Position numbers and translations under genes: made by a program. From Thraustochytrium sp. TN22 (taxonomy: Eukaryota > Sar > Bigyra > Thraustochytrida > Thraustochytriidae), in contig JABLUY010000139.1 in assembly GCA_013306675.1 (NCBI GenBank), positions 19,033 through 83,032 on the forward strand: a DNA stretch of 64,000 bases, given 5' to 3'. The notes beneath the pieces are model-generated. The model was not told the DNA's origin and did not search any database. It worked only from the letters and a program-made list of their open reading frames with translations. Below are positions 31,662-63,645 of the stretch, in pieces. Position 1 is the first letter of the stretch; every line of letters begins with the position of its first letter.

Positions 31662-31692
<31 letters not shown>

Positions 31693-33864: not shown

Positions 33865-34298
33865 GCTCTCGAGCGACGGCGCGTGCGCGCGCGCGCGCCC
33901 GCCCGGCCCCTTGCCACTGCGGCAAAGGATTTTGCGGCTGGCAGTTGCGGCTGGCACTTGAAGTGAGTTCCGAGTCCAGTCGCCCGCGCGCTACTACTGC
34001 GGGATCATGGCCGAGCTTGGCAGCCAGGATGCACTGCACTGCAGCCAGGTCCCGGGGATGGTCTCCATCTTGCGCTGTAAAGAACCAAGCTTAGTTAGCT
34101 GATTCAGCTTGCTAGGAGCTAGCTCAGAGCCAGTGGGCCTGCGGCGCATGGCAGCTTCTTGGTGGAGCAGCGACCTCAAGATTTGCTGCGCAGGAGGCGA
34201 CATTCGTTTCGAGGCAAAGCACATGTCGACGCTCGTCCCTCACGACATGGTAGCCCTAGGCTAGTTCGAAGATTCACTGGTGGTGATCAGTCAAGTTA
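33865..34298. other. Short spacer between GT32 genes A and B
   Basis: Holds the gene A promoter and gene B terminator regions. No gene or distinctive motif is seen. Confidence 0.5.
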
Positions 34299-36653
34299 TC
34301 AATTAAAGAGCATACCACCCTCCCTACCGTGGTCGTGCCACGGCGCGAAGAGTTCCTCAGGGCGGGGTGGGATGGGGATGTAGACGCCGCGCTGCACGTC
34401 CCAAGGCGCGAAGACGGCATCGATTCTACGTGTCCACTCTGCACTGTCAAAGGCCGTGCGGTCGACGCCCGGCTTGACGACGGAAACGGAGGCGTTGCGC
34501 CAGTGCGGGCCGGCACGCGATGGATCGCTGTGCGCCTCCTTCGCGATGGGTCCGAACCCGTTACGCAGCCGACGGCCGAAGCTGATAGTTGTGTACAGGA
34601 CGACGTGCTCCGTACGATTCGCCTGTACCGGGCTGCCACGCAGAAATGTGCTTTTGAAGGCAGCTGACATCGCGGGCGGGCCAGAAATCCACTTCTTCTC
34701 AGCGTACTCAAAGCGAGACATGGTCTTGTCGCCGTTGAGAATTTTGAGCATGTTGAGGAAAGCATGCCGGGCGGCCCTGGCCAAAATAAAGTGGCCCGGT
34801 CGATACATGAGCGCCCACTGTGCGAGGATGCCGTCCGGCATGATGCTGGAAACGACACTCTCGTCAAGTGGAATGATCTCGCGCAGTGGGACGAGAGCAT
34901 GAACGTCCGTGTCCAGGTACACGCCCCCGTAGAGGAGGACCGCCAGGTAGCGCCAAATGTCGGCGCGGATGGCGCCCGTCGCCACCGTATCAAAAAGCGG
35001 CACGAGATCACGAAAGGCGGTGCGTAGCAGGAGCTCACGTGCGCTGGCGTCGTCAAAGAGGTAAAAGTCCCACTCCGGATTCGCTCGGAGGAAGCCGTGC
35101 AGCTCCTTGCAGAGCACGGGGCCCACGCTGCGCGTTTTAGCCGTCATGAAGATGCGCCGCGGGATGAGCGCATCTGGTTTCGGCGCGACGGCAGGTGTGA
35201 AAAATGGCAGCTCCGTGTGGACCTTCTTCAAGCACGTGATGCGGTCTTGACTCGCCGTCAGCACCGCTGGCTTTTCGTGGGGCACGAGCCGCCAACCCCG
35301 TGGCGCTGGCGGGTCCCGTGCGGCAACAGGTAGGCTGTCCTTGGGCGGCGAAGTCGCGTTCAAGAGTAGCAGCACCTCCGGGCCCGGAATGACCGGGTAG
35401 AAGACGTCGAGCTGCGCATCCCAGCGCTTGAAGACCGCCCGGATCTTGCGCAGCGTAGCGGAATAGGGAAAACCCTCTTTGCTCGCCTCGGGTCGGAGGA
35501 TGTTGGAGCCTGCAGAGCCGGATGCTTTCCTGGTCCTGATTCCGCCACGGACGACACGCTCGCCGAAGTCATCACTCAGGTGCAGGAGAATCTTGTCCGT
35601 CGCGTTGACCCTCACCATGGCATGCCGGGGCGGAAACAGGTACGTGGTCAAGGCCCACTCGAAGGCGGTGTGCAGTGCCTCAGCGCCAGAGATCTTGGTC
35701 TCCGGCCCACTTGCGTACTTGCCCCAGCCCTCAATGTCGTACATGATCCAGAGTACGTGCAGGAAGGCATCTCTCGCTGCTCTGGCCATGAGAAAGTGGC
35801 CGGGCCGGTACATGAGTGCCCACTCTGCGAGGAGGCCCTCCGGGCCGACCGCCGAGACCGCATCCACGTCGACCGGGATCATCTCTCGCAGAGGCGTGAG
35901 GACTTGCGCGTCCAAATCAAGCAAGACACCGCCATAGACGAGCACCAATACGTAGCGCAGAATTTGCCTGCGCACGGCGTCATGGGCGAGCGCATCAAAG
36001 AGCGGGACGACCCCCGCGATATTGTGGTCAGCTCGTAGCAGGACCTCTCGCGCGTCGTGGTCAGTGACGACGTACACGTCCCACTCAGGATTGGCGTCCA
36101 CGAAGGCGCCAAGCTCGCGGCAGCGTGCTGCGTTCACGCGGCGCGACTTGCCCGCCATGAGAAAGACGCGGCGTGGGATGAGGGCTTCTGGCTTGGACTC
36201 GACGGCGGCCATGAAGAGAGCAAGCTCCGTGTCGTCCTGCGCTGCACATTTGAGCCTGGAGAACTGTGACGGGAGAAGGTCTTGTCGAGGTCGTGCGGTT
36301 GCTTGCACACGTACGGATGGCGGCGTGGAGATCGTTGTCGGCGTGACCCCCGGGAAGGTTGCTGTTGGCGTGGCCCGCGTGGGGGTCGCGTGTGGCGCGA
36401 CCGCCGTGGACATCGCGGGTGGCACGAGCATCGTCTCCAGCTTCTCCGTAGTGCCCACGAGCTCATAGGGCCCAGCGACCGCTTCCTCGCTCACTCGTGG
36501 CTGGAGCATGAACGGCACGAGCGAGACGGCCAAGCAGAACGCGATGCAGAGCGCCTGCGCCACCTGCTTGGCGCACCGCAGGGGTACTCGCCATGCCCCT
36601 CGGTGATGCCCACGGCCAGCTCCCAGGCCGCGCGCGCGAGTCCGCTTCGGCAT
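34299..36653 (-). CDS. Two-module GT32 glycosyltransferase, type II membrane protein (array gene B)
   Basis: 784 residues from ATG at 36653. A basic N-terminus and a signal anchor (about 31-50, AQALCIAFCLAVSLVPFML) are followed by a Thr/Pro-rich stem (about 80-125), then two GT32 modules with DXD motifs D-L-D (246-248) and D-T-D (581-583). Module B1 is most like A1 (both have a VRVNxTDKxLLHL segment). B2 is most like A2 (KKWISGPPAxSAAF and LRGxxxxA). B thus looks like A without its third module. Both DXD motifs are intact, so both modules may be active, probably in Golgi glycan or extracellular polysaccharide synthesis. The acceptor is unknown. Confidence 0.85.
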   Translation of the reverse strand: MPKRTRARGLGAGRGHHRGAWRVPLRCAKQVAQALCIAFCLAVSLVPFMLQPRVSEEAVAGPYELVGTTEKLETMLVPPAMSTAVAPHATPTRATPTATFPGVTPTTISTPPSVRVQATARPRQDLLPSQFSRLKCAAQDDTELALFMAAVESKPEALIPRRVFLMAGKSRRVNAARCRELGAFVDANPEWDVYVVTDHDAREVLLRADHNIAGVVPLFDALAHDAVRRQILRYVLVLVYGGVLLDLDAQVLTPLREMIPVDVDAVSAVGPEGLLAEWALMYRPGHFLMARAARDAFLHVLWIMYDIEGWGKYASGPETKISGAEALHTAFEWALTTYLFPPRHAMVRVNATDKILLHLSDDFGERVVRGGIRTRKASGSAGSNILRPEASKEGFPYSATLRKIRAVFKRWDAQLDVFYPVIPGPEVLLLLNATSPPKDSLPVAARDPPAPRGWRLVPHEKPAVLTASQDRITCLKKVHTELPFFTPAVAPKPDALIPRRIFMTAKTRSVGPVLCKELHGFLRANPEWDFYLFDDASARELLLRTAFRDLVPLFDTVATGAIRADIWRYLAVLLYGGVYLDTDVHALVPLREIIPLDESVVSSIMPDGILAQWALMYRPGHFILARAARHAFLNMLKILNGDKTMSRFEYAEKKWISGPPAMSAAFKSTFLRGSPVQANRTEHVVLYTTISFGRRLRNGFGPIAKEAHSDPSRAGPHWRNASVSVVKPGVDRTAFDSAEWTRRIDAVFAPWDVQRGVYIPIPPRPEELFAPWHDHGREGGMLFN

Positions 36654-38124
36654 GCATGCACGAGCTCCCGCGGCGCGCGGCGCTGCGCCTGCCGCAGCAA
36701 CTTCTGCGCGAGGCCGCGCGCGCGAGTTCGCTTCGGCTTGCACGAGCTCGCGCGGCGAGCAGCGCTGCGCCTGCCGTGGTAGCAACTCCGAGTCTGCACG
36801 GCCGTCACTCGGACGGTGACGAACCCCGAGCTGCACGTGGAGAGAGAGTCTGGAGACGCCGAGTCCGCACCCTCACAGTCAAGTCAAGACAGGCCAAGCT
36901 AAGACAGGCTAAGACAGGCCAAGACGCCGGTCAAGACAGGCCAGGACGCCGGAAAAGACAGGCCAAGACACGCGGCTTGTAACGTTCGGGTACCACCCGG
37001 TACTCGTACCAGTGCCAGGTGTTCACAGTCCGTAGGCCCAAGCCCGAAAATCAGGTCGGTCTTGGCGAATGTCTTACGGTGGTCCCGTCTGCCACGAAAA
37101 GATCGATCTACGTCGGCGAATGGCTGGTACGAATAGCTCATTTGCCCGTCCGGCCACCGTGACCATGTCATGTGGTTCGGGCCTTTCTGCCCTTGGCAAT
37201 CGCTATTGCGTGCGAGGAGCGCGAGGGAACAGGGGCGCGCGCGGCCGCAGGCGCGCGCTGGGGAGGGAGGAAGCGAAGGCACGGTGTCAGTGAGTCTCAG
37301 AGCGACAACTTTTGTCGCTCTTTCGTTCACGAGGATGGGGCGGCGACGTCGCAAGCGCCACGACGAGGAGGAGCTTCTCGCGAAGAAGAAAGCGCTTGCG
37401 CTCTTTCTCGTTTTGGCAGGCGCGTTCTCGGTGAAGCACAGGAAAGACAACTCCGTCTTGCAATCGTTTAGCAAAGTAAAGATGAGCCCGCCGCGTGTAG
37501 ATCCGAATGCGGAATACGCGCGCTCGCGAGGCAACCACGGCGGCGACGCGCGGGCCAAAGCGGGAACGATGGGACTCCAAGAATCGCAATGGGCAAGGAG
37601 GCTCATCGGCCGGGGAAAGCCAGACGAGTCAAGTTTCGCTTCTTCTTCGTGCGCTTTGCAGAGACAGTGTCGACCATGTTCAGCTTTCAAAAAAAGTGAC
37701 GACCATGTGGTGCTTGGATGGTTGAGCGCTGAAGGCTGGCTAGCTAGATGGCGCATGCCTTGGCCGCTCTTGCGATTGCGAACGCCATGGATCGTGCCAA
37801 GCTGCGCATGCACGCAGACACGCCAGAGGTCCCCAAGTGGAACGCCTGGCGGAGTGCCTCCGCTGCGCTATTCGGCGCGCGATAGCACTGCAAGAAATCG
37901 TTCATGGCGTTGGGAATCGAGAGCAAGGCTTGAACACGCCAACGTTCAAACGTTCAAGCCACTCACGGAAACCACCGACGGTGTTGCCACCACGGAAACC
38001 TTGTTCAAGTTGTAGTGCAGGTACGATGGAACCACCCGTCATGCGGGCTCGAAGAGGGCGAACGCATGACGAGGGCGGGGCTACGCGCCACATGCGTTGG
38101 ACTCACAATCCAGCAGAAATGATT
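36654..38124. other. Spacer between GT32 genes B and C, lower GC in part
   Basis: 1.5 kb. Repeated caagacaggcc-type units occur at about 36884-36970. From about 37000 to 37700 the base composition is less GC-rich than the surrounding genes. A weak ORF candidate is listed separately. A perfect 9-bp inverted repeat with a 17-bp loop is at 38037-38071, in the likely 3' UTR of gene C. Confidence 0.5.
37335..38015 (+). CDS. Doubtful ORF, 226 codons
   Basis: From ATG at 37335. It begins with a basic/acidic N-terminus (MGRRRRKRHDEEELLAKKK) and a short hydrophobic stretch (ALALFLVLAGAF), the sort of start seen in some transposase-like or small membrane proteins. The rest has no domain I know. A 304-codon frame overlaps on the other strand, and the composition differs from neighbouring genes. 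It could be a chance frame or a remnant of an inserted element. Confidence 0.2.
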   Translation: MGRRRRKRHDEEELLAKKKALALFLVLAGAFSVKHRKDNSVLQSFSKVKMSPPRVDPNAEYARSRGNHGGDARAKAGTMGLQESQWARRLIGRGKPDESSFASSSCALQRQCRPCSAFKKSDDHVVLGWLSAEGWLARWRMPWPLLRLRTPWIVPSCACTQTRQRSPSGTPGGVPPLRYSARDSTARNRSWRWESRARLEHANVQTFKPLTETTDGVATTETLFKL

Positions 38125-40464
38125 TCAAAGACTTGTCACAACGGCGACAGGGTCGTCGTCGACGAGGAGCTCAGGACCGGGAAGAACCGGGTAATGGACG
38201 CCGCGCTGCTGGTCCCAGCGATTGAAAACCGCCATAATCTTGTCCTGCCAGGTCTTGAAGGAGAAAGAGGAGCGGTCCACGTTCGGCTTGAAAATGGAGG
38301 TGCTGTCCGCGCCTGCTCCGCCGGGGTCGTCACCTGCCCCGGCAGCCACGAGGCGGTGGCCAAATCCCTGCGCGCCCCAGTACAAAATCTTGTCGGTTTT
38401 GTTGACGCGGATCATGGACTCTGTGGGCGGTGGCATGAGGGCCCCGTAGAAGGCCTGCAGCAAGACGCTCGGGCCAGCGATCTCGCGCGTGGCGCGAGTC
38501 TCGTACTGCGACCACCCGTCGCGCCCAGTCAAGACGCGGAGGAGGTTCATGAAGGCAGCTCTGGCTGCCCTGGACATGAGGAAGTGGCCTGGCCGGTACA
38601 TGAGCGCCCACTGTGCAAGCACGGCCTCGGTCGAGGAGGTTGAGACACTGTCGACGTCGAGTGGTACGAACTCGCGCAGCGGGGCCAAAGCGTGCGCGCC
38701 TAGGTCCAGAAAGACGCCACCATAGGTGAGCACAACGAGGTAGCGCCATAGGTCGGCGCGGACCGTCTCAGAGGCCAGCGTGTCGAAGAGCGGCACAAGC
38801 TCGCGAAACTCGGAGCGCCCCACGAAGCGGCGTGCGGCCGCGTCATCAAAGATGTAGACGTCCCACTCAGGATTCGCCCGCAAGAAAGCGCGCAGCTGCC
38901 CGCAGCGCGTGACGCCCATACTGCGGCTACTGGCACGCACGAAGACGCGACGCGGGATGAGGGCATCAGGTTTGGGCGCGGCGGCGGGCACGAAGAAAGG
39001 CACACCGGTCACGCCGCGGTTGTCGCAGGAGATGCGGTCGACTTGGACGCGCGGCGGCATGTCCGGGATCATCCGGTAGCCGAGCGGGTCGGGCTGGCCG
39101 ACCTGGACGGGGAGTGTTCCGCGCGTGGCGTTCACGAAAACCCAGTCGGGCCCGGGCACCGCGGGGAAACTGACGTTGCGCTGGCGGTCCCACCGTGCAA
39201 AGGTCTCGGCGATGACGCCGGCCCAGGTCGCGTAGTCGAAGTCCGTCCTGTTCACCTCGGGCCGAATGGCTGAGACGGCGGTGTTGGACCAGTGCGCGCG
39301 CCTCCAGGTGTTCTTGCCAGCCCGCGCCTGGTCAAGGTCCAAGTTGGCGTCCTCGCGCTTAAAGTCCATCCAGTTGTTGCGTACGCGATCGCCGAAGCTC
39401 TGGGTAGTGTAGAGCAGCATCTTGGCGTTGTCGTCGAGCGGGAGTGTGCGCGCGTCCTCGAAGGCGCGGGACATGGCGGGCGGGCCGGAGATGTACTTTT
39501 TGTCGACGAACTCGTGCCTCTCCCAACCGTCGACCTTCTTCATGACCTTGAGCACGTTCATGAAGGAGTCTCTGGCGGCCCTGGCAAGCACGTGGTGGCC
39601 CGGGCGATACATGAGCGCCCACTGCGCGAGCATGCCGTCTGGCATGATCGAGGAGACCACTTCGGCATCCAGCGGGACAATCTCGCGCAACGGGGCGTTG
39701 ATGTAGGCGTCCATGTCAAAGTAGACGCCGCCATAGCTGAGCAGAACCAAATAGCGCCAGAGGTCGGCGCGGATGGCGCCGGTGGCCACGGCGTTGACGA
39801 GCGGCACGAGCGCGCGGAACTCACTGCGCACGAGCCAGTCCTGCACAGCGGCGTTGTCGAAGAAGTAAATGTCCCACTCCGAGTTGTTCTGCGCCAGGTC
39901 GAGCAGGCCTTGGCAATGCTTGGGTCCCACGATGCGCGTCCTCGCCGTGAGGAAGATGCGGCGCGGAATGAGGGCGTCCGGCTTGGGCTGCGTTGCCGGC
40001 ATCAGCTCGGGCAGCTCTGTGTTGGCCTTTTCGGCGCACGCGAAGCGCGGCGCGCTCGCCTGAACATGCGGCGGTTTTCTGCGCGGCTCTACTCTGAAGC
40101 CGAGCTCGCCCTCGTAGTCGGCGGGCGTGAGCCCCCCCTCTGCTGCTGCTGCTGCTGACGGAGACCTGCCCTCGTCCTCGTCCTCGCCGACATGGTTCTC
40201 CTCGGGCGCGGCCGGCGCCGCGGGCTGCTCGCCGGTCACGCTGGCCTCGCGTAGCCTGGGCGCCGCGGTGGCCTCGTTGGCCGCGCCCGCCACTTCAGAA
40301 ACGTGGACGGCGTGCTGCACCCTGCCTGTGAGCGCGTACGGCGCCGCGGTGAGCACGAGACACATGAGCACGCCCAGCGCCAGCGCGCGCCGCAGGCTGC
40401 CCTGGCCGCTGCTGCGCGGCGACCGCGGCACGCTGCCTGCCGCCAGTGGCGACCGCGCCACCAT
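38125..40464 (-). CDS. Two-module GT32 glycosyltransferase, type II membrane protein (array gene C)
   Basis: 779 residues from ATG at 40464. Signal anchor at about 27-45 (ALALGVLMCLVLTAAPYAL), an acidic stem, then two GT32 modules. C1 has an intact DXD, D-M-D (250-252), and is most like A3 and D (KKYISGPPAM, TQSFGDRVRNN). C2 reads D-L-G (587-589), so the second acid of DXD is gone. C2 resembles the type-1 modules A1 and B1 (MIRVNKTDKIL). The module order 3-then-1 is the reverse of what gene A alone would predict. C2 may be a regulatory or structural module rather than a transferase. Confidence 0.85.
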   Translation of the reverse strand: MVARSPLAAGSVPRSPRSSGQGSLRRALALGVLMCLVLTAAPYALTGRVQHAVHVSEVAGAANEATAAPRLREASVTGEQPAAPAAPEENHVGEDEDEGRSPSAAAAAEGGLTPADYEGELGFRVEPRRKPPHVQASAPRFACAEKANTELPELMPATQPKPDALIPRRIFLTARTRIVGPKHCQGLLDLAQNNSEWDIYFFDNAAVQDWLVRSEFRALVPLVNAVATGAIRADLWRYLVLLSYGGVYFDMDAYINAPLREIVPLDAEVVSSIMPDGMLAQWALMYRPGHHVLARAARDSFMNVLKVMKKVDGWERHEFVDKKYISGPPAMSRAFEDARTLPLDDNAKMLLYTTQSFGDRVRNNWMDFKREDANLDLDQARAGKNTWRRAHWSNTAVSAIRPEVNRTDFDYATWAGVIAETFARWDRQRNVSFPAVPGPDWVFVNATRGTLPVQVGQPDPLGYRMIPDMPPRVQVDRISCDNRGVTGVPFFVPAAAPKPDALIPRRVFVRASSRSMGVTRCGQLRAFLRANPEWDVYIFDDAAARRFVGRSEFRELVPLFDTLASETVRADLWRYLVVLTYGGVFLDLGAHALAPLREFVPLDVDSVSTSSTEAVLAQWALMYRPGHFLMSRAARAAFMNLLRVLTGRDGWSQYETRATREIAGPSVLLQAFYGALMPPPTESMIRVNKTDKILYWGAQGFGHRLVAAGAGDDPGGAGADSTSIFKPNVDRSSFSFKTWQDKIMAVFNRWDQQRGVHYPVLPGPELLVDDDPVAVVTSL

Positions 40465-41147
40465 CTTGCGCGGCCCGTCGCGCCTGTCGGCGCGCCCGCC
40501 TCCGGTGACCAGGAGTTCAGGTTTTGCGACGAGTCGAGGCTTGCGAGCTCTGGCTGACGTGACTCGATGATGGAAGACAACACTACAGAAAGGGCGCGTG
40601 CCTTGCAGGCTATGACGGCAGACAGTGAGCGCGTCGGAGCGGCAGAACGCGCGCGGCCTCACAGGCTGGACGTGCGCAGATCTAACTTAGGTTAGGCTCG
40701 TCAAACGCAGCCAGGCGCCCATCAGAATCACACCGCTGGCTGCCCCTTGGAGAGCTCGGCGTCTGGGCTCTCGGAGCAGTTACCGCAGAAGCGGAAGTGA
40801 CTGTGCCGCGAGGTCCGTTGACCGACTCACGCATCCGTGTCAAGCATTGCGCCAGTGATGAGAGGAGAGACTGCACCCTGCTTGCGTTGAAGCGGCTGTC
40901 GCAAGCAGCGCAAAAGGATGAACATGAGGTTGGGGTGCGGATCAAGAGATGCTTGGACGTTGATTGGACCAACAAATCGCGGTCCGCGGCGTCGGGAAGC
41001 GCCGTCACTGCAGTTGCAACTCAGCCCTCCGTCGATCCCGCGTTGGATTCCATGGATGGAAGAAACAAACATGGAATCAGAAGAAACTGTGATCCAAGGA
41101 GGCAAGAGCACGAACCTGAGCCCGTTTTGACCGTATCCCGCCCCTGA
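40465..41147. other. Spacer upstream of GT32 gene C
   Basis: Promoter side of gene C. No gene is supported; composition is moderately GC-rich. Confidence 0.5.
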
Positions 41148-41240
41148 CGTCAAAGTCAACGAAGTTGTACGTCAAAGTCAACGAAAAGTACAACCTTTGT
41201 GAGAGGCACTCTTTGGCCCAAAAACGTCAAAGTCAACGAA
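41148..41240. repeat. cgtcaaagtcaacgaagttgta repeat units
   Basis: The motif acgtcaaagtcaacgaa occurs repeatedly at about 41148-41260 and again at about 41580. It is followed each time by a shared agtacaacctttgtgagagg stretch. This forms the outer, more eroded part of the duplicated 3' flank of GT32 gene D. Confidence 0.75.
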
Positions 41241-41576
41241 GTTGTACGTCAAAGTCAACAAAAAGTACAACCTTTGTGAGAGGCACTCTTTGGCCCAAAA
41301 AAGTGGTAGCCAGCAACTCGTGTCCTTTTCTTCTTCTTCAAAATCAGCAGCGTCGCCAAATGAGCTAACTTAGAATACAGGTACCACCCAGGCGGATTGT
41401 TAGTTCGCAAAGAGAGCCTCAGGCCCGAGGCCGGGAGGATAGTCCAACCGCGCTGCTTGTCCCATGGCAGAAAGGTGTTCATAATGGTCTCAAGCCAAGC
41501 GTCGGAGTCGATGAGAGTCCGGTCGACGCCGGGGCGGAAAACGGAGACGGTGCTGTTGGACCAATGCGCGGTGGCG
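41241..41576 (-). pseudogene. Tandem duplicate of the 3' end of GT32 gene D
   Basis: This 336-bp block is a near-copy (about 97% by eye) of the adjacent 41577-41921 block. It holds the last ~59 codons of gene D plus roughly 165 bp of 3' flank. It lacks the catalytic core, so it cannot encode a transferase. Differences are a handful of substitutions and one short indel, so the duplication is recent. It lies directly downstream of the complete gene in the same orientation. Confidence 0.85.
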
Positions 41577-41743
41577 TTGTACGTCAAAGTCAACGAAAAG
41601 TACAACCTTTGTGAGAGGCACTCTTTGGCCCCAAAAAAGTGGTACCATGGTAGCCAGCAACTCGTGTCCTTTTCTTCTTCTTCAAAATCAGCAGCGTCGC
41701 CAAATGAGCAAACTTAGAATACAGGTACCACCCAGGCGGATTG

Positions 41744-42949
41744 TTAGTTCGCAAAGAGAGCCTCAGGCCCGAGGCCGGGAGGATAGTCCACACCGCGCTG
41801 GTTGTCCCATGGCAGAAAGGTGCTCATAATGGTGTCAAGCCAAGCGTCGGAGTCGAAGAGAGTCCGGTCGACGCCGGGGCGGAACACGGAGACGGTGCTG
41901 TTGGACCAATGCGCGGTGGCGCCCTTTCGCGTGGCGGTCTCCTTCTTGATGTGCTTGTAGTTGTTCCGGATCCGGTCTCCAAAGCTCTGCGTCATGAACC
42001 AGAGGATCTTGTCCTCGTAGGGGACCGGGAACTGGTTGATGGAGTCCACAAAAGCACTCGACATGACGGGAGGGCCCGTGATGGACTTCTTGTCGTGGAA
42101 CTCTTTGCGCACCCAGTTCTTGTCGCCCCGGATGGTCTTGAGCACGTTGACGAAGCCGTCCCTGGCGGACCTGGCCATGATGAAGTGGCCAGGACGGAAC
42201 ATGAGCGCCCACTGCGAGAAGAGGCCGTCTACCATGATTGTGGAGACAGCCTCGATGTCGAGCGGGATGATCTCGCGCAGCGGGACCTTGACCTCGGAGT
42301 CCGCGTCCAGGTAAACGCCACCGTGCTTGAGGATGATCATGTAGCGCCAGAGGTCGGCGCGGATGGCGCCGGTCTGTATGGTCTCGAAGAGCGGGACGAG
42401 CTCGCGGAACTCGGTGCGCAGCATGAAGTGGCGCACCTCGTCGTCGCCAAAGGCGTAAAAGTCCCACTCCGGATTCTCCTGGAGCAGGTCGTAGACGAGC
42501 TTGCAGAGCCCTGGGCCAACGCTGCGCGTCTTGAACGTCATGAAAATGCGGCGTGGGATGAGCGCGTTCGGCTTGGGCAGGACCGCTGGCGAGAAGAAGG
42601 GCAGCTCCGTCTCGCCGTGGCTGTCGCACTTGAGGCGGTCCGCGGGCGCCCGCACGCGCGGCGGCATGGCCGGCGGCATCATGCGGAAGCCGATCTCCTC
42701 CTGCGAGGCCGCGCCGGGCAGCGCGAGCTTCTTGCTCCTCTCGGCCGCCCTGTGCAGGCTCGCCAAGCCGTCCTCCAGCTTGGCGACCTCGTGCAGCACG
42801 GCGGTTTTATCCTCCTCGCAGGCGCAGCTGCACACCGCTGGCGTCACCGCTGCCAGCGGTGTGCAGGACAGCTCGTTCATGAACGACGAGAGTGCGAGCG
42901 CCACGCACACCGCCAGCACGACCGCCAGCGCCAGCCGCTGCTCGCGCAT
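41744..42949 (-). CDS. Single-module GT32 glycosyltransferase, type II membrane protein (array gene D)
   Basis: 401 residues from ATG at 42949. Signal anchor at about 6-24 (LALAVVLAVCVALALSSFM), a Cys-containing stem (CSCACEED) with a short coiled coil, and one GT32 module with intact DXD, D-A-D (215-217, GGVYLDADSEV). The module is type 3, like A3 and C1 (TQSFGDRIRNNYKHIKKE). It is the only single-module member of the array and the closest to the usual GT32 length. Its last 59 codons are duplicated immediately downstream. Confidence 0.88.
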   Translation of the reverse strand: MREQRLALAVVLAVCVALALSSFMNELSCTPLAAVTPAVCSCACEEDKTAVLHEVAKLEDGLASLHRAAERSKKLALPGAASQEEIGFRMMPPAMPPRVRAPADRLKCDSHGETELPFFSPAVLPKPNALIPRRIFMTFKTRSVGPGLCKLVYDLLQENPEWDFYAFGDDEVRHFMLRTEFRELVPLFETIQTGAIRADLWRYMIILKHGGVYLDADSEVKVPLREIIPLDIEAVSTIMVDGLFSQWALMFRPGHFIMARSARDGFVNVLKTIRGDKNWVRKEFHDKKSITGPPVMSSAFVDSINQFPVPYEDKILWFMTQSFGDRIRNNYKHIKKETATRKGATAHWSNSTVSVFRPGVDRTLFDSDAWLDTIMSTFLPWDNQRGVDYPPGLGPEALFAN

Positions 42950-45387
42950 GGTCGCGGCGCGCTGCTTGCTTTGCTCTGACCGAACCCCTGCCTGCCGCCG
43001 CCGTTGTCGCGGCTTGTCGCGGCGCGCGGGCGAGGCCACACTCACAGCGACCGCGAGCGGCGCGGCGCGGCGCGGCGCGGCGAGCGGCGCGGGGGCGCTC
43101 CGCTCTCCGAGCCCGCCGAAGTTCAAGATCAGGTGCCCCCGCGTCTTCCGTCGCGACGAGTGAGTTGCTCGCCGACGTTAGTCCGCGTGAGTCCACGTGA
43201 GTCCTCCGCAGCACTTGGCGTGGACGGCGTCCGCGGCACTAGGCCGAGGATGGGTGTGCCCGGCCATCACCACTCGTGGTCGCACCTCAGAGGCTCAGGC
43301 TGGCGCGTGAAAACCGAGGCTCTGACTGGATCATGACATCATGTGGCTGCGGCAGGCGCGGCTGTCACAGCGAGAAGCATGCAGAGTTGTCTCGAAAGGA
43401 GCTCAGCGCTGCGCTGCGAGGGAGCTGCAGGGAGCTGCAGAGTTGTCTTGTGACTGACCGGTGCAATGCAAGGTTCTTTTCACTGATCTTATGAGTCACT
43501 CTCCCATGTCAGTGACACTCTGATCACAGGCTCGGCTGCTGCACATCAAGTTCTCAAGAGCCTGCCAGAGCGGTTGCCCGGCCTGCCGGTGCAGTGCAGT
43601 GGTTGGTTCGAGTGAGCGGGCCCCGGCCTGTGTCCGCATCGGTGCAGGATGACCGTGGCACGGTGGCTGCAACACGAAGTTGTTCGAACCCGCTCCAAAT
43701 CAACTTGAAGCTTGGCATTGGCAAGGCTCACTGAAGCCGTAACGTTACCATCACTGGCCGATCGGACTCGTACTCGCCACTAGGCTAAGCTGGCCATGAT
43801 TGCTGGTGCCTGGTCCCTGGATGAGTCACAGGCAGACGACACGACACGCCTCGAGCTACGCCAACCTCCCACCTCAGCTGGCTTACCGTTCGGTTCAGAC
43901 CCTGTCCACTGCAGGCCGGCACTGCCTGAGACGGGCATGGCATGGGACGCGCAGGAACCCCCGTTGGAGGTCGTTATCGCCACAACGTCAAGCAAACGTC
44001 GATTTTTGCCCTCCCAGGCACAGGCAGGCCTGCGCCAGCTAGGCCAATTTCTCGACCGTCACCTCCCTCGCTCGCTCGCTTCTGCAAGGGCCGGCGCCTG
44101 CTTCGCGAGCGTCTCACCGGCCCGGGCACTCCGCTCGCCGTCGGCGGCGTCCGAGTCCGCGTCCGCCTCGCCGCAGCCACTGGCAGACTGCCGCACCCAA
44201 GGCACAAGTTGAAGCTGCCGCGCCGAGCGACGTCACTGTCCCCTCGCCGCGGCGCGCGCAACGCATCTCGCGGCGCGCCCCGGCCGCACCGGACCCGGCG
44301 CGCGGCGGGTCCCGCGGCTGCCGCCGGCGCGGCGTCCGGTGCGCTCGGCGCCGGCACCACGTCGGTGCCGCTCCGGCCACACGCCGCCTCCAACGAACAG
44401 TCTCAGTCCACGCCGCCCGCCACGGCTGCGCGCTCGCCGTTGACGTCGAGGCCGACCGGGGCTGCGGTGGAAGCTGGCAGCGCGGCTCGGCGGCTCGGCG
44501 GCGCTCGGCGCCACTGGCCAGCGGCGGCGCCGGCCCGGCCGCCTCGATTGGCCGTGCTCGCTGCTTGTCGCAAGGTGACAGCGACGCCGTGCTGCCGGCC
44601 GTGCAGCACCAGGTGGCTGCGTGGGCGCGGCGGCGCACATCGATTGCAGCGCGGTGCTGGCGGCCAGCCAGCACCGCAGCGCGCGCGAGCTGGCACCGCG
44701 GCGCCGCACGAACCATTGCACCGCATCCACTGCGAAACAGTCGTCCGTGGCGAGGCGAGGCGAGTCGAGGCGAGGCCCTCTCGTCCCACCAGCCTGCAGT
44801 GCTCGCCGGAGTCGCGCGCTCTGTGCCACCAACGGCCTCGCCTCGCCTCGCCGCGCGAGCTTACTTCACGCGGCGCGGCCAAAGCGACTTCGCGCCGCGG
44901 CCTCGCCGCTCCGCGCCTCGCTTCGCTCCGCGCCTCGCCTCGCGCTTGCGCTCGAGTCCTCCTCCTTCATCGCCTTCATCCTTCGCTCGGCGATTCCGGC
45001 ATTCATTCGCGCCGGGAACAGCGGGAGGGTAACGCCGGGAGCGCCGGTTGCGCGTGACGTTCCTGCCTAGAGGGGCGGGAAGAGCGGCGGCGGGCGCGCG
45101 GCAGGCGGCGCGCGGGGGCCTGAGCGCGCGGGAGACAGAACCCGATCGCAGAGGCGGCCACGGCGAGCGCGAGCGGCGAGCGCAGCAGGCGAGCGCAGCA
45201 GCGGGCGGCGGCGAGCGGCGAGCGGCTCGCGCGGGCGTGCGTGCGCGCGCCGGAGACCCGGCAGCGGCTCGCAGCGAGGGCGAGCGTCAGCAGGCAGGCA
45301 GTCAAGCGAGGCGGCCGCGTCCCGGCGGAGGGAGGCAGGGAGGCAGCCGGCCGAGCGCGAGCCGGCGAGGCAGAGCGAGACGCGAAG
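42950..45387. other. Intergenic, no gene supported
   Basis: A 2.4 kb divergent spacer between GT32 gene D and the PAPS reductase gene. It has short direct repeats (ggagctgcag twice near 43420-43440) and GC-rich stretches. Several hundred-codon open frames overlap on both strands, and none looks like a conserved protein. Confidence 0.5.
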
Positions 45388-46983
45388 ATGTTCAAGACGC
45401 TGGGCAGAGGCGCGCTGGGCGCGGTGCGCGCCGGCGACCGCAAGCGCGCGTTTAGTGCGGCAGGGCAGACGGCAAAGCGCGCGCTGTCGGCGGCGACCGT
45501 GACGCCCGGCGGCGCGCGCGGCGCGCAGGTGCGCGAGCAGCAGCACAAGCTCAGCACGGCGGCGGCCGTGCAGCCGCCGGTGGCGCCCCAGCTGGATGGC
45601 GCCACCGACCTGGAGCGCATGAACACGGAGCTGGAGCGCTTGGAGCGCGACCCGCTGTCCGTGCTGCGCTGGGCCATGGAGGAGTTCGACGGCCGCCTGG
45701 CCATGAGCACCTCGTTCGGCATCCAGTCGGCCGTCCTCCTGCACCTGGCCACCCAGGTCAAGCCGGACATCCCGGTCGTCTGGGTGGACACGGGCTTTCT
45801 GCCCGAGGAGACGTACAAGTATGCCGAGATCCTGCGTGAGACGCTCAACCTCAACCTGACCGTCTCGACCAACTCGCAGTGGAGTGCCGCGCGCATCCAG
45901 GCGCTCTACGGCAACCTATGGGAGAGCGAGGACGCCGAGGCGCACGCGCTCTACGGCCGCCTCACCAAGGTGGAGCCCATGAAGGCCGGCCTGGACTCGC
46001 TCGAGCCCAACCCGCTCGTGCTGCTGTCCGGCCTGCGCGCCTCGCAGACCAAGGCGCGCGCCAACATGAAGCCCATCGGCTTCCAGCAGGGCCGCTTCAA
46101 GCTGCTGCCCATGCTGCGCATGACGGACGACGACGTCGCCGCCTACATGGACCAGCACGACCTGCCGCAGCACCCGCTGCAGGCCAAGGGCTACGTGACC
46201 GTCGGCGACTGGCACTCGTCGCGCCCGGTCGAGGAGGGCGAGGACCCGCGCAACACGCGCTTCGGCGGCAAGTTCCAGGAGTGCGGTCTGCACGTCGATT
46301 CGCACGAGCCCGTGACGCCGGCGCCCGCTGTCAAGCCCGCCACGCCGGCCGCGGCCGCCGCTGTCAAGCCCGCCAAGGCCGCTGCCGCCGTCAAGCCCGC
46401 CGCGCCCCAGCGCTTGCTGCCCGAGTCGCTCGAGAAGACCGGCGTCAAGGCGCTCGGGCTCACTCGGCACAACCCCGAGACGGACGTCGCCACCATCATG
46501 GTCAAGAAGCTCACTGAGGACGGCTCCTACTGCCGCAAGTGCAACGACGTCGCCGACAAGATCGAGAAGGACGGCATCTCCAACTGGATCGGCCACACCG
46601 CCGTCGCCAACGTGCTCGACCCCACCAGCGAAGGCGCCGTCCTCGCGCGCCACTTTGGCGTCGCCACTGCCCCCTTCTTTCTCGTGCGCGACGCCGCCGA
46701 GGAGGCCCAGGACGGCGAGTGGAAGGTCATTCGCTCCTACCTGCAGCTCCGCAAGCTCCTCGAGAAGGCCGCCGAGCACAAGGCCGCCACCCTCGAGGTC
46801 GCCTCGCCCGAGGCCCATGCCAAGGCCGAGCACGACCCGACCCTGGTGGAGGCTCGCGCCAACCTCGACTCGATTCAGTCCGAGATCGCTCGCCTCCAGC
46901 TCGAGCTCCGCGAGAAGCAGAACGCCGCCGCCGCCGTCGAGAACCAGCTCCACGGCCGCGCCGCGCAGCTCGGCCTCGAGTAA
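45388..46983 (+). CDS. PAPS reductase (CysH type) fused to a thioredoxin-fold domain
   Basis: 531 residues, ATG at 45388. The N-terminus (about 1-45, Arg/Ala/Ser-rich, no acids until Asp17) resembles a mitochondrial presequence. The CysH domain (about 75-305) has MSTSFGIQSAVLLHL, WVDTGFLPEETYKYAEIL, TKVEPM and the catalytic ECGLH motif (298-302). The paired Cys motifs of iron-sulfur APS reductases are absent, indicating the PAPS type. A Pro/Ala/Lys linker (about 310-350) leads to a thioredoxin/glutaredoxin-like domain (about 350-460) with CRKC (382-385) and a TAP cis-proline, then a short coiled-coil tail. It reduces PAPS to sulfite, and the C-terminal domain may supply electrons, as in plant APS reductases. 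Confidence 0.88.
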   Translation: MFKTLGRGALGAVRAGDRKRAFSAAGQTAKRALSAATVTPGGARGAQVREQQHKLSTAAAVQPPVAPQLDGATDLERMNTELERLERDPLSVLRWAMEEFDGRLAMSTSFGIQSAVLLHLATQVKPDIPVVWVDTGFLPEETYKYAEILRETLNLNLTVSTNSQWSAARIQALYGNLWESEDAEAHALYGRLTKVEPMKAGLDSLEPNPLVLLSGLRASQTKARANMKPIGFQQGRFKLLPMLRMTDDDVAAYMDQHDLPQHPLQAKGYVTVGDWHSSRPVEEGEDPRNTRFGGKFQECGLHVDSHEPVTPAPAVKPATPAAAAAVKPAKAAAAVKPAAPQRLLPESLEKTGVKALGLTRHNPETDVATIMVKKLTEDGSYCRKCNDVADKIEKDGISNWIGHTAVANVLDPTSEGAVLARHFGVATAPFFLVRDAAEEAQDGEWKVIRSYLQLRKLLEKAAEHKAATLEVASPEAHAKAEHDPTLVEARANLDSIQSEIARLQLELREKQNAAAAVENQLHGRAAQLGLE

Positions 46984-57768: not shown

Positions 57769-58560
57769 ATGATGTCGAGCGTGTACGAGACCACGATCAA
57801 GTCGCTGGAGGGCAAGCCGATGGATTTCGGCGCGCTGCGCGGCAAGGTCCTGGCGCTGGTGAATGTCGCTGGCCAGTGTGGGCTCACGAAGCGCGACTAC
57901 GCCGGCCTGCAGCAGATGCACGAGGCGTACGCCAAGGACGGCCTGGTCATCATTGGCTTCCCGTGCAACCAGTAGGTCCAAGCGCAAGCGCAAGCGCACG
58001 CGAGCGAGCGAGCGAGCGAGAAAAGGAGCGAAAGGAAAGGAAAGGAGCGACGGCGCGCGAAGGCACGAAGCGGTGGGACTGACACAATGGCGCCGCTCGC
58101 AACGCACTGCAGGTTCGGGGAGCAGGAGCCCGGCGACGCAGCGGAGATCCGCGACTTCGTGAGCAAGGTACGTGCTGGGCTGCATGCATGCATCGCGCTC
58201 GACCTCGCCGGGCTGACTCGGACGGCATCGCCTTGTTGCAGCTCGACCCGCCCGTTACCTTTGCCCTCACGGAGAAGATCGACGTGAACGGTGACAACGC
58301 GCACCCGCTCTGGAAGTACCTGCAGTGTACGTTGCCTCCGCCTTTTCGCCTCAGCTAACCCCAGCCTGACATGTGGGCGCCTCGCAGCCGTCAGCAAGCG
58401 CGACCCGCCGGCCATCAAGTGGAACTTCACCAAGTTCCTCGTCTCGCGCGACGGCCAGACCATTGAGCGCTACGAGCCGAAGCAGCCCGCCATTACGCTC
58501 GAGGACCGCATCAAGGAGCTGCTCGCCCAGGACGCCGGCGCGCCCACAAGCAGCCTTTAG
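57769..58560 (+). CDS. Glutathione peroxidase, cysteine type, three introns
   Basis: Exons 57769-57971, 58113-58167, 58242-58326 and 58388-58560 give 171 residues. ATG-ATG opens the frame at 57769. Motifs are VNVAGQCGLT with catalytic Cys37, FPCNQFGEQEPG (split by intron 1) and KWNFTKFLVSRDG with the active-site Trp. Intron donors are GTAGGT, GTACGT and GTACGT; branch-like sequences are actgac, gctgac and gctaac. The enzyme reduces hydrogen or lipid peroxides using thioredoxin or glutathione. No clear targeting peptide. The next gene downstream is a tandem paralogue with selenocysteine at the same site. Confidence 0.92.
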
Positions 58561-59147
58561 AACCAATGCGTCGCGCTGCGCGCACAGCAACGAACGAAAC
58601 TTTTGTCCAATCTCCGGCGAACTTGACGCGCCACGACCTTGGGCGACCTTGGAGCGTCTTGGAGCGAGCTTGAGCGAGAGCACTGCACGCACGTCAGCTT
58701 GCGAGCTGGCTGTACGCGCCGGCCGCGCGCCGGCCGCGCGCAATTTACCGCGCAAAGAAGAAGGACTCGGAGGCTTTCTTGCGAGTGATCATGACTCATG
58801 AGCATGACTTCGGAAGGCAGGCGAGGCAGGAGGCAGTCGTTGACAGTCGTTCTCCCCCCTCCGAGTCCAGGCCCCGGAAGGCACCCAGCGAATCACGCCT
58901 GGCGTGATTCTTCGTTCTTCGAGCGGCTCAAGAAGGAGCGCGAGCGGCAGCCTGGCCGGGCGGCCTAATGGATAGGCCAGGCCGCGACCGCCCGCGGGCG
59001 GCACTGCAGCCGACACGCCTGTGCCGCGCGGCAAACCAGGTTTGTCTCGGGCCGCAAGTGTCACATCTCGAGCGGTGCGATCGGAGGCGCCGGTGCGAGT
59101 CCGCCCAGGAGGTAAAGGTCGCGCGCGCGCGCGCGGAGGCCGGGCAG
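58561..59147. other. Spacer between the two GPX genes
   Basis: 3' flank of the first GPX and promoter of the second. No SECIS-like ATGA/AA/GA hairpin is seen after the first gene, consistent with its Cys active site. Otherwise nothing is supported. Confidence 0.5.
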
Positions 59148-59766
59148 ATGCTGAAGGCACTGAGCAACCTGCGCACGCCGGCGACGAAGATGTCGAGCGT
59201 GTACGAGACGAGCATCAACTCGCTGGATGGCCAGCCGATGGACTTTGAGGCGCTGCGCGGCAAGGTCCTGGTGCTGGTGAACGTGGCGAGCAAGTGAGGG
59301 CTCACCAAGCGCGAGTACGCGGGTCTGCAGCAGCTGCACGAAGCGCACTCGCAGGAAGGTCTTGTGGTCATTGGCTTCCCCTGCAACCAGTACGTGCTCG
59401 CTGCGTGCTTGATTGCTTGGCTAAGCTTGCCGCGCGTGACGAGAACTGACGGGCGCGTTGGCGGCGTCGCAGGTTTGGAGGGCAGGAGCCCGGGGACGCG
59501 GCGGCGATCCACGACTTCGTGAGCAAGGTACGTGCAGACGCGTGCATTGATTGCTCTTGCCGACGCAGGCTTTTGACTGACTTGGCCCGCGGCCAAAAAA
59601 ACACCACGTAGCTCACGCCTCCCGTCACCTTCGGCTTGACGGAGAAGATTGACGTGAACGGCGACGACGCGCACCCGCTTTGGACGTATCTAAAGAGTAA
59701 GTCTCGCTGGCCTCTGCTTGGGAGGCGGCATGCGAGCAAAAGGGTGGACTACTAACCATGGGCACG

Positions 59767-59805
<39 letters not shown>

Positions 59806-60018
59806 CCTTGCACGCGCACTCACGTTCTCACAGACGTCGCAAAGGGCGAGTCGCTCCTGCCGCTGGCGGCCATCAAGTGGAACTTCACCAAGTTCCTGGT
59901 CTCGCGCGACGGCGGGACGATTGAGCGGTACGAGCCGACGACGCCGGCCATTTCGCTGGACGACCGCATCAAGGAGATGCTAGCCGAGGAGGCGCCCGCC
60001 GACTCGAGCAGCCTGTGA
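59148..60018 (+). CDS. Selenoprotein glutathione peroxidase with in-frame TGA (Sec), three introns
   Basis: Exons 59148-59389, 59473-59527, 59612-59696 and 59834-60018 give 188 residues if the TGA at 59295-59297 is read as selenocysteine (residue 50). An internal ATG at 59190 matches the paralogue's start and would give 174. The context NVASK-U-GLTKREYAGL is the canonical GPX active site. After the TGA the frame stays open and conserved through FPCNQFGGQEPG and KWNFTKFLVSRDG to a TGA stop at 60016. Intron phases and exon lengths (55 and 85 nt) are identical to the Cys paralogue. Donors are GTACGT, GTACGT and GTAAGT. A SECIS element follows 90 bp after the stop. It is a peroxidase of hydrogen or lipid peroxides, normally faster with Sec. 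Confidence 0.9.
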
Positions 60019-60107
60019 GCAGTGACAGGCAGCCGTGCATCCACTCAGGAGAGCTAGGGCACGCGTCGCGCCCGCAGCGGCGGCCCAGGCTCCGCTTGTC
60101 GCACCTG

Positions 60108-60173
60108 ATGACGCTTGGCGAGGCTAAAGCCTCACAGCCCCTTGTGTCAAAAGGGGCGGCCTCGCCAAGCAGA
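60108..60173 (+). promoter_or_regulatory. SECIS element, form 2
   Basis: ATGA at 60108-60111 and AGA at 60171-60173 supply the non-Watson-Crick quartet (tandem G.A pairs). Between them 60113-60124 pairs with 60159-60170 in 12 uninterrupted Watson-Crick pairs. An AAA at 60126-60128 sits in the apical internal loop, and a mini-stem CCCC(TT)/(AA)GGGG (60138-60156) caps it, as in form-2 SECIS. It lies in the 3' UTR of the TGA-containing GPX, where eukaryotic SECIS elements act through SBP2 and eEFSec. A competing local hairpin (gaggc-taaa-gcctc) exists. Confidence 0.88.
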
Positions 60174-60669
60174 CCTGGTCTTCGGGCGCATCCGATGGCA
60201 CGCGAGTCAACCCACAAGACCTTCCTCGCACGCCATCGAGGTGCCCGACCCCCCCCCCACATAAACCGCGACAAGCGGGCCGCGTCGCTGCGCCACGGCT
60301 TCGTAGACTATCCCGCAAAGCTCACCGTATCCCCCCTGGCTCGTCTTCAAGCTGCTCAAAGCTTGCATGCTTGCTTTCGAAAGGATGAAACCGAGCAAAA
60401 TCTTGGGGTTCTTTTCATCGTTTTGTAACAGCATCGCGGTGAAGTGATGAGCGATGGGTGGTAGCAGATGTGCCTCTTGTCACCTTCTTGAGAGCGGGAA
60501 AGAACGAATTGTGCAGTGGCCGTGGGGACAAATTAAAAGGGACGCGGGCGCTGCGCGAGCCGTGAGCGCGCGGCTTGCGAGCCAACATAAGAGGTGAAGT
60601 CAGGCCCAGAGCGACTGGACAGATCGGATAGGGGACGTGACGCGTGCGAGGCGCCAGCCTTGCAGTCAA
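60174..60669. other. Convergent 3' spacer
   Basis: Between the selenoprotein GPX and the 3' end of the MYB gene. No gene or clear motif is seen. Confidence 0.5.
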
Positions 60670-62343
60670 TTAGACCTTCTCCGTCGCCGCGGCGGCCCTG
60701 GGCGTGGTAGCGGCCTTGGCCTTGGCCTTGGCCGGCGCCGCCCTGGTGCGCGTTGCGATCCTGGCGGCACCGCTGTTGTTGTTGTTGTTGTTGTTGTTGG
60801 CAGACACCATGTTGCTGAGGATCTGGAGGTTGGTGAGCGACATGCCACCGTCCTTCTCGGGCGGCTTGTTGGGCGAGATGGCGCCCGTGGGCTGGGAGAC
60901 CTTCCACAGCGGCGTGTCGACAACAGCGGGCGTGGCGCCACTGCGCGGTGGCGCCGCGGAGCGGCCGTTCTCCGTGTTGATGGAGGCCGGCGTGGTGAGG
61001 TGCGGGCGCGAGGCGCTAAAGCTGGCGGCGCGGCGGCCGCGGCGCGCGGACGTGGGCGTTTCCGCGCTGGGACGGCGCACGCTCTCGTCGCCGGCGTCGG
61101 CGTCGAGCGCGGCGTTGTAGAGCGAGATGAGCGAGCTCGCCACGGTGCCCTCGGGACCGCCAGCGCCGGCCTTCTTGCGCGGCGCACGCTTGGCGCGCGG
61201 CTTGGCAGCGGGGTTTCCTCCGGCGGAGGCGGCGGCGGAGGCGGCGGCGGCGGCAGCGGCCGAGGAGGAGACCGAGGAAGCGGGGCCGGTCTTGCGCGCC
61301 TTCTTGGAGGGCGACACGGCGGCCTTGACGGGCGCGCGAGAGCGCTTGGCGCCGGCATTCATGGTGGTGGCGGCGAGCGTGAGGGCGTCAATCGCGCTGC
61401 CGCCCTGCGCGTTGACCTGCGCGATGGCGGCGGCGGCCGCAGCCTCGGCGGCCGCCGCAGCGGCGCGCGCCTTCTCGGTGGCCTCCTTCTGGTTGACGGT
61501 GCGGTGGCGGCGCGTGGCGGCGTTCCAGCGGTTCTTGACGGCGTTCTCCGGGCGGCCCGGCAGGTAGATCTTGGCGATCTGGCTCCACTTGTTGCCGAGC
61601 TTGAGCTGGCCCTCGATCAGGAGCGCGTCCTCGTCCTCGGTCCACTCGCCGTGCTTGATGCTCGGGTCCAGGTGGTTGAACCAGCGCTCGCGGCACTGCT
61701 TGCCGATGCGACCCGGCACGCGCATCGCGATCTCGCTCCAGCGCGTGATGCCGTTCTCGATGCACGACTTGATCTTGGCGTCCTCCTCGGGCGTCCAAGG
61801 GCCCTTGACCAGCCCGGGCCGCAGCACCTTTTGCCACCGATGCAGACACTGCACGTCGGTGCGCGTGTCCGCCAGGTACTCGGACGCGATGCGCTTCCAG
61901 TTGCGCGCGCCCACCTGCGTTACGGCCAGCTTGAGCGACTCGTCCTCGGCCTTGGTCCACCTCCCGGACCCCTTGCCGCCCGGCGGGCTGCTGGCCAGCG
62001 CCGCCTCGCGCGCCTTGGCGGCCGCCACGGCTGCCGTCAGCGCGCTCTGCTTGCCTGCCTCAGGGTCCGCTTCCGGGTCCACCTCCTGCTTGAATCCGAC
62101 CTCGGCCTCCTCGTCTACGGCCCCCTCCGAGGCATCCACCTTCGGCTTGCTGCGCACGTCCAGCAGCGTCTCCGCCGCCGAGCTCTCGTCCCGGGCGGCG
62201 CCCTGCATGAGCGGCAGCTCCACCTCGACCTTGGTGGGCGGCATTGGCATCGTCGCGGCGCCCGCTGCGTCGGCTGCGTCAGCAGCGGCGACGGCGGCGG
62301 CGGCGGCGGCGCTGGCGGCGCTGGCGGCAGCAGGCTCCGTCAT
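60670..62343 (-). CDS. Three-repeat MYB transcription factor (MYB3R/c-Myb type)
   Basis: 557 residues from ATG at 62343; the open frame upstream has no other ATG. Three adjacent MYB repeats lie at about 127-176 (GRWTKAEDESLKLAV), 178-228 (KGPWTPEEDAKIKSCI ... CRERWFNHLDP) and 230-280 (HGEWTEDEDALLIEGQ ... AVKNRWNAATRR). Spaced Trp residues in each repeat mark this as R1R2R3 type, which binds the MSA or MRE core AACNG and in plants and animals controls G2/M or growth genes. The rest is Ala-rich and disordered, with a polyasparagine run (about 510-517, encoded by gtt repeats at 60776-60799). An N-terminal acidic stretch may be an activation domain. Confidence 0.9.
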   Translation of the reverse strand: MTEPAAASAASAAAAAAVAAADAADAAGAATMPMPPTKVEVELPLMQGAARDESSAAETLLDVRSKPKVDASEGAVDEEAEVGFKQEVDPEADPEAGKQSALTAAVAAAKAREAALASSPPGGKGSGRWTKAEDESLKLAVTQVGARNWKRIASEYLADTRTDVQCLHRWQKVLRPGLVKGPWTPEEDAKIKSCIENGITRWSEIAMRVPGRIGKQCRERWFNHLDPSIKHGEWTEDEDALLIEGQLKLGNKWSQIAKIYLPGRPENAVKNRWNAATRRHRTVNQKEATEKARAAAAAAEAAAAAAIAQVNAQGGSAIDALTLAATTMNAGAKRSRAPVKAAVSPSKKARKTGPASSVSSSAAAAAAASAAASAGGNPAAKPRAKRAPRKKAGAGGPEGTVASSLISLYNAALDADAGDESVRRPSAETPTSARRGRRAASFSASRPHLTTPASINTENGRSAAPPRSGATPAVVDTPLWKVSQPTGAISPNKPPEKDGGMSLTNLQILSNMVSANNNNNNNNSGAARIATRTRAAPAKAKAKAATTPRAAAATEKV

Positions 62344-63645
62344 GCTGGCGTCCGCGCCGGGCGTGCTCGTCGCAGCGGTCGCAGACGGAGACGGCGCCGG
62401 CGGCGACGGCCTCCTCGTCCTTGTCCTCGGCAGGCAGGGTGAAAGAAGCAGGCTCAAGGGGGGGAGGGGAAGCCGAGCCCGCCCCTCTGGTTCTCGCCCT
62501 TGTTCGCCTCCGCGTCCGCGTCCTCGCCGCGCGCGCCGCGTCCGCTCGCGGCGGCGCCCGCGCGCTGCCCCTCCCTCTCGCCCGCGCGCCCGCGCCCGCG
62601 CCCGCGCGCGCGCAAGCGCTCGCCCGCGCGCCGAGCTAGCTCGCGCGCGCCGCGCCCGATGCCGATGCTCGATGGACCGATGCCGAGTCCCCCCCCCGCC
62701 TCCGGCCCGGCGCGGCGGCGGCGGCGCGCGCGGCGGCCTCGCGCGCGCGCTGCGCGCGGCTGCGCGGCTCGCGCGGCCCCGCGCGCGCGGCGCTGCGCGC
62801 GGCGGCTGCGCGCGCCGGCGAAGCGCAACGAAAGTCGCAGAAAGCAAAGCAGGCGAAAGCAGGAATAGTCGCGGCCGCGACTGGACTGGCGGGCGCCCTT
62901 CAACGGCCGCTCAACGCGCCGCGGCGGGTCCGGTGCGCGCCGCCCCCCGCGCCGGGGCGCGCGCCGCTACGGCAAACGCTAGGCCCGGCGCGGCGCAGGC
63001 GCGCGGACTCGCACCGCGCCCCCCGGAGCGCCCGGCGCGAGGCGGCGGCCCGCGCGCCGCGAGGGGGCGCGCCGCGAGTCCCGGCGCAGGCAGCGGCGGC
63101 GGGAGGCGCGCGCGCGCACAGGACGCGGCGCGCCGATAAAGGCAACGAGGAGGGCGCCCACGGCGACGCCGGGTACCAGCTCGCGGCGCGCGCCATCCAG
63201 GGCGGCGAGAACGGGGCGGCGAGCGAGGAAAGGAAAGCTAGCTTCATGGGTATCGGAGGGATGCGGGCGAAGAGGGCGCGGCGAGGGGAGCGAAGCGAGC
63301 TGCGCTAGGAGCGGCGGAACTTGAAGGGAAGGATGGAAGGCTCGTGCGAGCGGGGCGCGGAGACCACGGCGATGACTGGAATGCAGGCCCGAGCGGCGAG
63401 CCTAGGACGGTGAGTGAGGGGCGGCGGGTCGTGGCTCATGCGCACGAGGTTAGCTTGCTCACGGCGGCCAGGGAGCACTCGCCTAGGCCCGCGGGCGGGG
63501 AGCGCAACGCAACGCGGCGCAACGGAGCATAACGGCAAGGCCGAGCACGAGAGGGACGGGACTCGGATGCGGAGTGGTGGAAACAAGGAACTATCATGCG
63601 GAGAGGTGGCAGGGAGGGGCGCGTGGGGGGTGCGGGCTGGCGCGC
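62344..63645. other. Promoter region upstream of the MYB gene
   Basis: 1.3 kb of very GC-rich DNA with gcgcgc-rich stretches near 62580-62830. No gene is supported. Confidence 0.45.

Follow-up and report, generated by a model that had tools for sequence, protein, structure and literature searches.

A glutathione peroxidase gene with an in-frame TGA at the catalytic position, a downstream SECIS-like hairpin and a tandem cysteine paralogue

Is a glutathione peroxidase (GPX) gene that carries an in-frame TGA a broken copy of its intact neighbour, or does it encode a selenoprotein? This question was raised by the region 59148-60018 (plus strand) of the window, which is the whole 64-kb stretch of DNA analysed here. 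Spliced conceptually, the gene (Sec-GPX below) is composed of four exons and encodes a glutathione peroxidase of 188 residues, whose reading frame contains a single internal TGA. A preliminary description had read it as a selenocysteine (Sec) gene, and our analysis supported this reading: the TGA falls on the catalytic residue, the protein encoded beyond it is intact and under constraint, and a hairpin with canonical SECIS anatomy lies at the correct place on the sense strand. We consider it very probable that the locus is a functional eukaryotic selenoprotein gene encoding a GPX4-like glutathione peroxidase.

Exon 1 is located at 59148-59389, starts with ATG at 59148 (alternatively at 59190) and carries the Sec codon. 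Exon 2 (59473-59527) encodes the catalytic Gln, exon 3 is located at 59612-59696, and exon 4 (59834-60018) encodes the catalytic Trp-Asn and ends with a terminal TGA at 60016-60018; all four are on the plus strand. This splice structure, exon 3 included, was inferred from comparison with the Cys paralogue together with GT-AG signals. All three introns are GT-AG, with cumulative phases of 2, 0 and 1 that are identical in the Cys paralogue, so the earlier claim of in-frame downstream exons with conserved splice phases was borne out.

The in-frame TGA at 59295-59297 (plus strand) is codon 50 counted from ATG 59148, in the context NVASK-TGA-GLTKREY. It is placed at the catalytic Cys of the paralogue, a TGT within NVAGQ-C-GLTKRDY, as had been proposed, and we assign Sec to it on the basis of this TGT and of the Cys in relatives. 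Past the TGA, 138 codons are intact; apart from the TGA the frame is undamaged, and every splice site is preserved. The expected truncation to 109 codons by ORF calling was also observed: the listed ORF, 58968-59297 with ATG at 58968, ends at TGA 59295-59297.

The Cys paralogue is located at 57769-58560 on the same plus strand, with exons at 57769-57971, 58113-58167, 58242-58326 and 58388-58560. It has TGT as the catalytic codon, terminates in TAG, and ends about 590 bp upstream of the Sec-GPX gene. Exons 2 and 3 measure 55 and 85 bp in both copies. With the TGA codon set aside, the two copies encode the same residue at 129 of the 170 codons aligned. The upstream regions of the two copies aligned weakly, and the Sec copy may start at ATG 59148 or at ATG 59190. 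The stretch between these two candidate ATGs (59148-59189) gives the Sec copy an N-terminal extension of 14 residues, MLKALSNLRTPATK, which is basic and includes no acidic residue; it is absent from the Cys copy and may be an organelle presequence.

The G+C content of the window is 62-72% per 4 kb. The Pfam scan of its proteins covered 17 of 25 long frames and the GPX. A neighbour gene with three Myb DNA-binding repeats (60670-62847, minus strand) is convergent with Sec-GPX. A gene for PAPS reductase, an enzyme of sulfate assimilation, is located at 45124-46980 on the plus strand (NCBIfam PRK02090, 238.6 bits, cut-off 154), and its C-terminal region beyond the reductase has a CRKC motif and appears thioredoxin-like by eye. 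The introns mark the DNA as eukaryotic, and the PAPS reductase gene and the G+C content are compatible with an algal source, though neither is proof of one. At 30547-43177 (minus strand), four consecutive open frames each encode a Gly_transf_sug (DXD) domain and constitute a tandem glycosyltransferase family, and a 77-bp unit occurs in two tandem copies with 98% matches at 41147-41301.

With Sec written as C, the Sec-GPX protein contained a GSHPx domain (Pfam PF00255, E 2.4e-36, 124 bits, cut-off 27). Its best PDB matches, behind three designed proteins, included yeast HYR1, a glutathione peroxidase 5 and GPX4. The catalytic tetrad of glutathione peroxidases is described in PMC9925728 as Sec or Cys, Gln, Trp and Asn, and it is complete in Sec-GPX at core positions 36, 71, 129 and 130. 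All 80 bacterial relatives (the best 80 of at least 595 matches) share the Gln, Trp and Asn of the tetrad with it.

The active-site codon in these bacterial relatives, the best 80 of at least 595 matches, was TGC in 63 and TGT in 17. Among the relatives from viral contigs, alignment gave the codon for all 44 loci (TGT 27, TGC 13, GCA 3 and ACA 1), while a first motif count recognised the active site in 22 of the 44 (TGT 12, TGC 10). The active site itself is divergent in the four loci without a Cys codon (L039, L040, L041 and L043), and two of the 44 matches (L006 and L013) gave a stop symbol in the conservation script. TGA was found at the active site in none of the best 80 of at least 595 bacterial matches and in none of the 44 viral-contig loci. 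Sec-GPX has the feature by which selenoprotein genes are recognised, an in-frame TGA aligned with the Cys of homologues with conservation on either side.

Is the sequence after the TGA still constrained? By the NG86 method, the Sec and Cys copies showed dN of 0.145, dS of 0.486 and dN/dS of 0.298 over the 134 aligned codons after the TGA. The bootstrap 95% interval of this ratio was 0.167-0.500, with 2.6% of replicates at 0.5 or above; before the TGA, dN/dS was 0.395 over 36 codons. As a neutral yardstick we reasoned that one copy drifting freely since the duplication should give a dN/dS of about 0.5 or more.

Conservation was scored in 28 distinct viral-contig relatives of the 44, with duplicates and the four loci lacking a Cys codon excluded. 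Thirty columns after the TGA were conserved at 90% or more in these 28 relatives; the Sec copy retains 27 of them and so does the Cys copy. Each copy has thus lost three, of which two are common to both, and the copy-specific losses are His for Tyr at 53 in the Sec copy and Met for Leu at 49 in the Cys copy. The columns beyond the TGA in which the copies differ were also compared with the 28 relatives: a residue that none of these has was carried by the Sec copy alone in two columns and by the Cys copy alone in five, with 16 columns undecided; therefore there is no sign of decay in the Sec copy.

Downstream of the terminal stop we found a type II (form 2) SECIS-like hairpin at 60108-60174 on the plus strand. 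Its 5′ side begins with AUGA (60108-60111) followed by C, and AGA-C is located at 60171-60174 (AGA at 60171-60173), giving an AUGA/AGA quartet. The helix is a perfect 12 bp (60113-60124 with 60159-60170) and is extended by a U.G as the 13th pair; AAA is located at 60126-60128, where the apical bulge begins, and a 7-bp ministem is formed by 60137-60143 and 60151-60157. Type II SECIS are described as having a ministem within the apical loop (PMC3737529) together with an AG/GA quartet and an adenosine triplet (PMC7409322); the hairpin contains the apical-loop ministem, the quartet with AG/GA and the apical adenosine run. The form-2 SECIS anatomy of the preliminary description, with its 12-bp helix, AUGA/GA quartet and apical AAA, was thereby confirmed, the gap from the Sec-GPX stop to the AUGA being 89 nt rather than 90 bp. 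Folding of 60094-60188 (95 nt) gave a minimum free energy of -47.5 kcal/mol (z -4.68), and none of 200 shuffles was equally stable.

In the spliced mRNA the Sec codon is separated from the SECIS by about 506 nt (417 + 89). A minimum of 51 nt and best function at 200 nt or more are quoted in PMC3737529, and the spacing exceeds both. The terminal stop of Sec-GPX is TGA too and lies 89 nt 5′ of the SECIS core, also more than the 51-nt minimum quoted there. Read-through of terminal TGA 60016 would give 12 extra codons, AVTGSRASTQES (60016-60057), and then TAG; occasional Sec insertion at this TGA is conceivable but unsupported.

A custom SECIS descriptor (UGA/GA quartet, helix of 9-14, apical AA), composed with the site already known, gave a single match on both strands of the 64-kb window, which was the 60108 hairpin with a score of 33.5. 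On 100 dinucleotide-shuffled windows it gave a mean of 1.49 matches and a top score of 28, so a single match alone carries little weight; with 1.49 matches in 128 kb of strand, the expectation for a given 1 kb of one strand is about 0.01. Stems of 12 perfect base pairs closing loops of 20-60 were found three times in the window and 0-2 times per Markov control (n=10), and thus the stem by itself is no proof of a SECIS. What is improbable is that a strong stem and SECIS motifs occur together at this position, not any stem or match alone.

Rfam models, which are uncalibrated on known algal SECIS, revealed no SECIS family in the whole window at gathering level and none in 59900-60400 at E up to 10. 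The sole Rfam row was ACAT on the opposite strand, whose 14.2 bits fall short of its gathering score of 37. The 3′ UTR SECIS expected of a eukaryotic selenoprotein gene is accordingly recognised here by anatomy and by the custom descriptor, not by Rfam. BLAST of the hairpin against the window gave no second copy, its remaining matches being just 11-12 nt long.

A further feature is common to the two copies. The resolving Cys is described as a feature of thioredoxin-dependent CysGPX (PMC9404953, PMC9925728), and in the thioredoxin type it follows FPCNQF; both window copies have Val there. This column holds Cys in 80 of 80 bacterial relatives (the best 80 of at least 595 matches) and in 96% of the viral-contig set. 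In the core proteins of both window copies, Cys (or Sec) is confined to positions 36 and 65, the latter being the FPCN Cys. In HMMER alignments, 2p5q (glutathione peroxidase 5) has a Cys one residue further on, opposite the Ser of the Cys copy, and 7l8m (GPX4) has no Cys at the resolving position. These residues point to a GPX4-like enzyme, probably regenerated by glutathione or another external thiol: with no resolving Cys, reset of the oxidised selenium would be made by an outside thiol and not by an internal disulfide and thioredoxin. The animal Cys subfamily GPX7 is also described as being without the canonical resolving Cys and as using PDI (PMC9925728), so the missing Cys does not fix the reductant.

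Could the TGA be an ordinary stop in a recent pseudogene, that is, a GPX copy hit by one mutation, with a coincidental hairpin behind it? A single base change would be enough, an intact Cys copy adjoins, and the dN/dS of the two copies is compatible with a very recent loss; weak descriptor matches are also common by chance, at 1.49 per shuffled window. However, the frame is otherwise undamaged with every splice site retained, and, among 188 codons, the stop occupies the only one at which a Sec would be expected. The hairpin, 89 nt past the stop and on the correct strand, scored above all matches in 100 shuffled windows, and the relaxed descriptor found nothing in the 3′ flank of the Cys copy. 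We therefore regard a pseudogene as very unlikely.

A sequencing or assembly error at the third codon base, the true gene being a second Cys GPX, is highly improbable: TGA is indeed one base away from TGC and TGT, but such an error leaves both the 3′ UTR SECIS and the missing resolving Cys unexplained. Hardly credible at all is an altered genetic code in which UGA is read as another amino acid of an ordinary non-Sec enzyme, for which nothing further than the in-frame TGA speaks. Sec-GPX itself terminates in TGA and its paralogue in TAG, and Cys codons occupy the site in all 80 bacterial relatives (the best 80 of at least 595 matches) and in 40 of the 44 loci from viral contigs; the remaining four have GCA or ACA, and none has TGG.

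The locus is most simply explained if the usual eukaryotic Sec system recodes the UGA. The 3′ UTR SECIS would recruit an SBP2-type SECIS-binding protein together with eEFSec carrying Sec-tRNA, the ribosome would place Sec at UGA 59295, and translation would continue across exons 2-4 up to the terminal UGA at 60016. The Sec, with Gln, Trp and Asn, would then reduce hydroperoxides, and the oxidised selenium would be reset most likely by glutathione or other outside thiol. Sec insertion at UGA 59295, and expression of the gene, are what we infer from the sequence. One noted exception apart, the presence of selenoproteins in 33 algae is reported to match an intact Sec machinery (PMC6627142); by analogy with this agreement, the Sec machinery is likely present in the source organism. 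The gene itself indicates that this organism very likely decodes Sec. ARAGORN found no tRNA in the window; with introns allowed it proposed two long-intron tRNAs and a tRNA-Trp with an 18-nt intron, all of about 80% G+C, which were judged unconvincing.

How did a Sec copy and a Cys copy come to stand side by side? The Cys copy too is without the resolving Cys, which suggests Sec ancestry for it. We somewhat favour a lineage-specific Sec-to-Cys conversion, in which a Sec ancestor without resolving Cys would have been duplicated, after which TGA would have become TGT in one copy and the SECIS of this copy would have disappeared. No SECIS relic was detected in the 3′ flank of the Cys copy by the strict or the relaxed descriptor, and BLAST of the 3′ flanks of the two copies gave nothing longer than 10-nt matches. 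Since the relaxed descriptor matched in only 17 of 200 mononucleotide shuffles of this flank, zero is usual for unrelated sequence and means merely that no recognisable relic exists. The opposite direction, from Cys to Sec, needs a functioning SECIS downstream and is called harder in PMC7539508. In ciliates, some Cys GPX are reported to retain SECIS, and Sec was possibly gained (PMC7409322); on this reported pattern, both directions are possible for the pair.

The Sec-GPX gene is of a well-known kind and may already be catalogued. Of 36 algal genomes, 35 are reported to contain GPX, for the most part as the Sec form, and GPX with Sec is listed among the most widely distributed algal selenoproteins (PMC7539508). 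These algal genes, likened here by description, likewise have Sec at the catalytic position and a SECIS in the 3′ UTR; unlike in the window, no tandem Sec/Cys GPX pair is mentioned in the available text of PMC7539508. Vertebrate GPX4 (PHGPx) aligns with Sec-GPX over most of its length (2obi, 7l8m), and 7l8m, like the window copies, is without Cys at the resolving position. In contrast to vertebrate GPX4, Sec-GPX has short GT-AG introns in DNA of 66.7% G+C and an optional 14-residue N-terminal extension.

For the pair, the reported mammalian GPx5, a tandem duplicate of GPx3 (PMC3316567), likewise combines a tandem duplication with a Sec-to-Cys change in one copy, but in another GPX subfamily and another lineage. 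The glutaredoxin (GRX) pair reported in Fragilariopsis cylindrus (PMC7539508) is also composed of duplicates, one with Sec and one with Cys, though it is not GPX. A literature search of titles and abstract openings gave no case of an algal tandem Sec/Cys GPX; printed cases may exist.

Sec-GPX opens no new mechanism and is one more well-supported selenoprotein gene truncated by plain ORF callers. If the Sec-to-Cys conversion is true, a one-Cys GPX stands beside its Sec sister, and the cell could have selenium-dependent and selenium-independent versions of one enzyme. The Sec/Cys pair is a compact natural system for what Sec gives a GPX4-like enzyme and for how Sec is lost.
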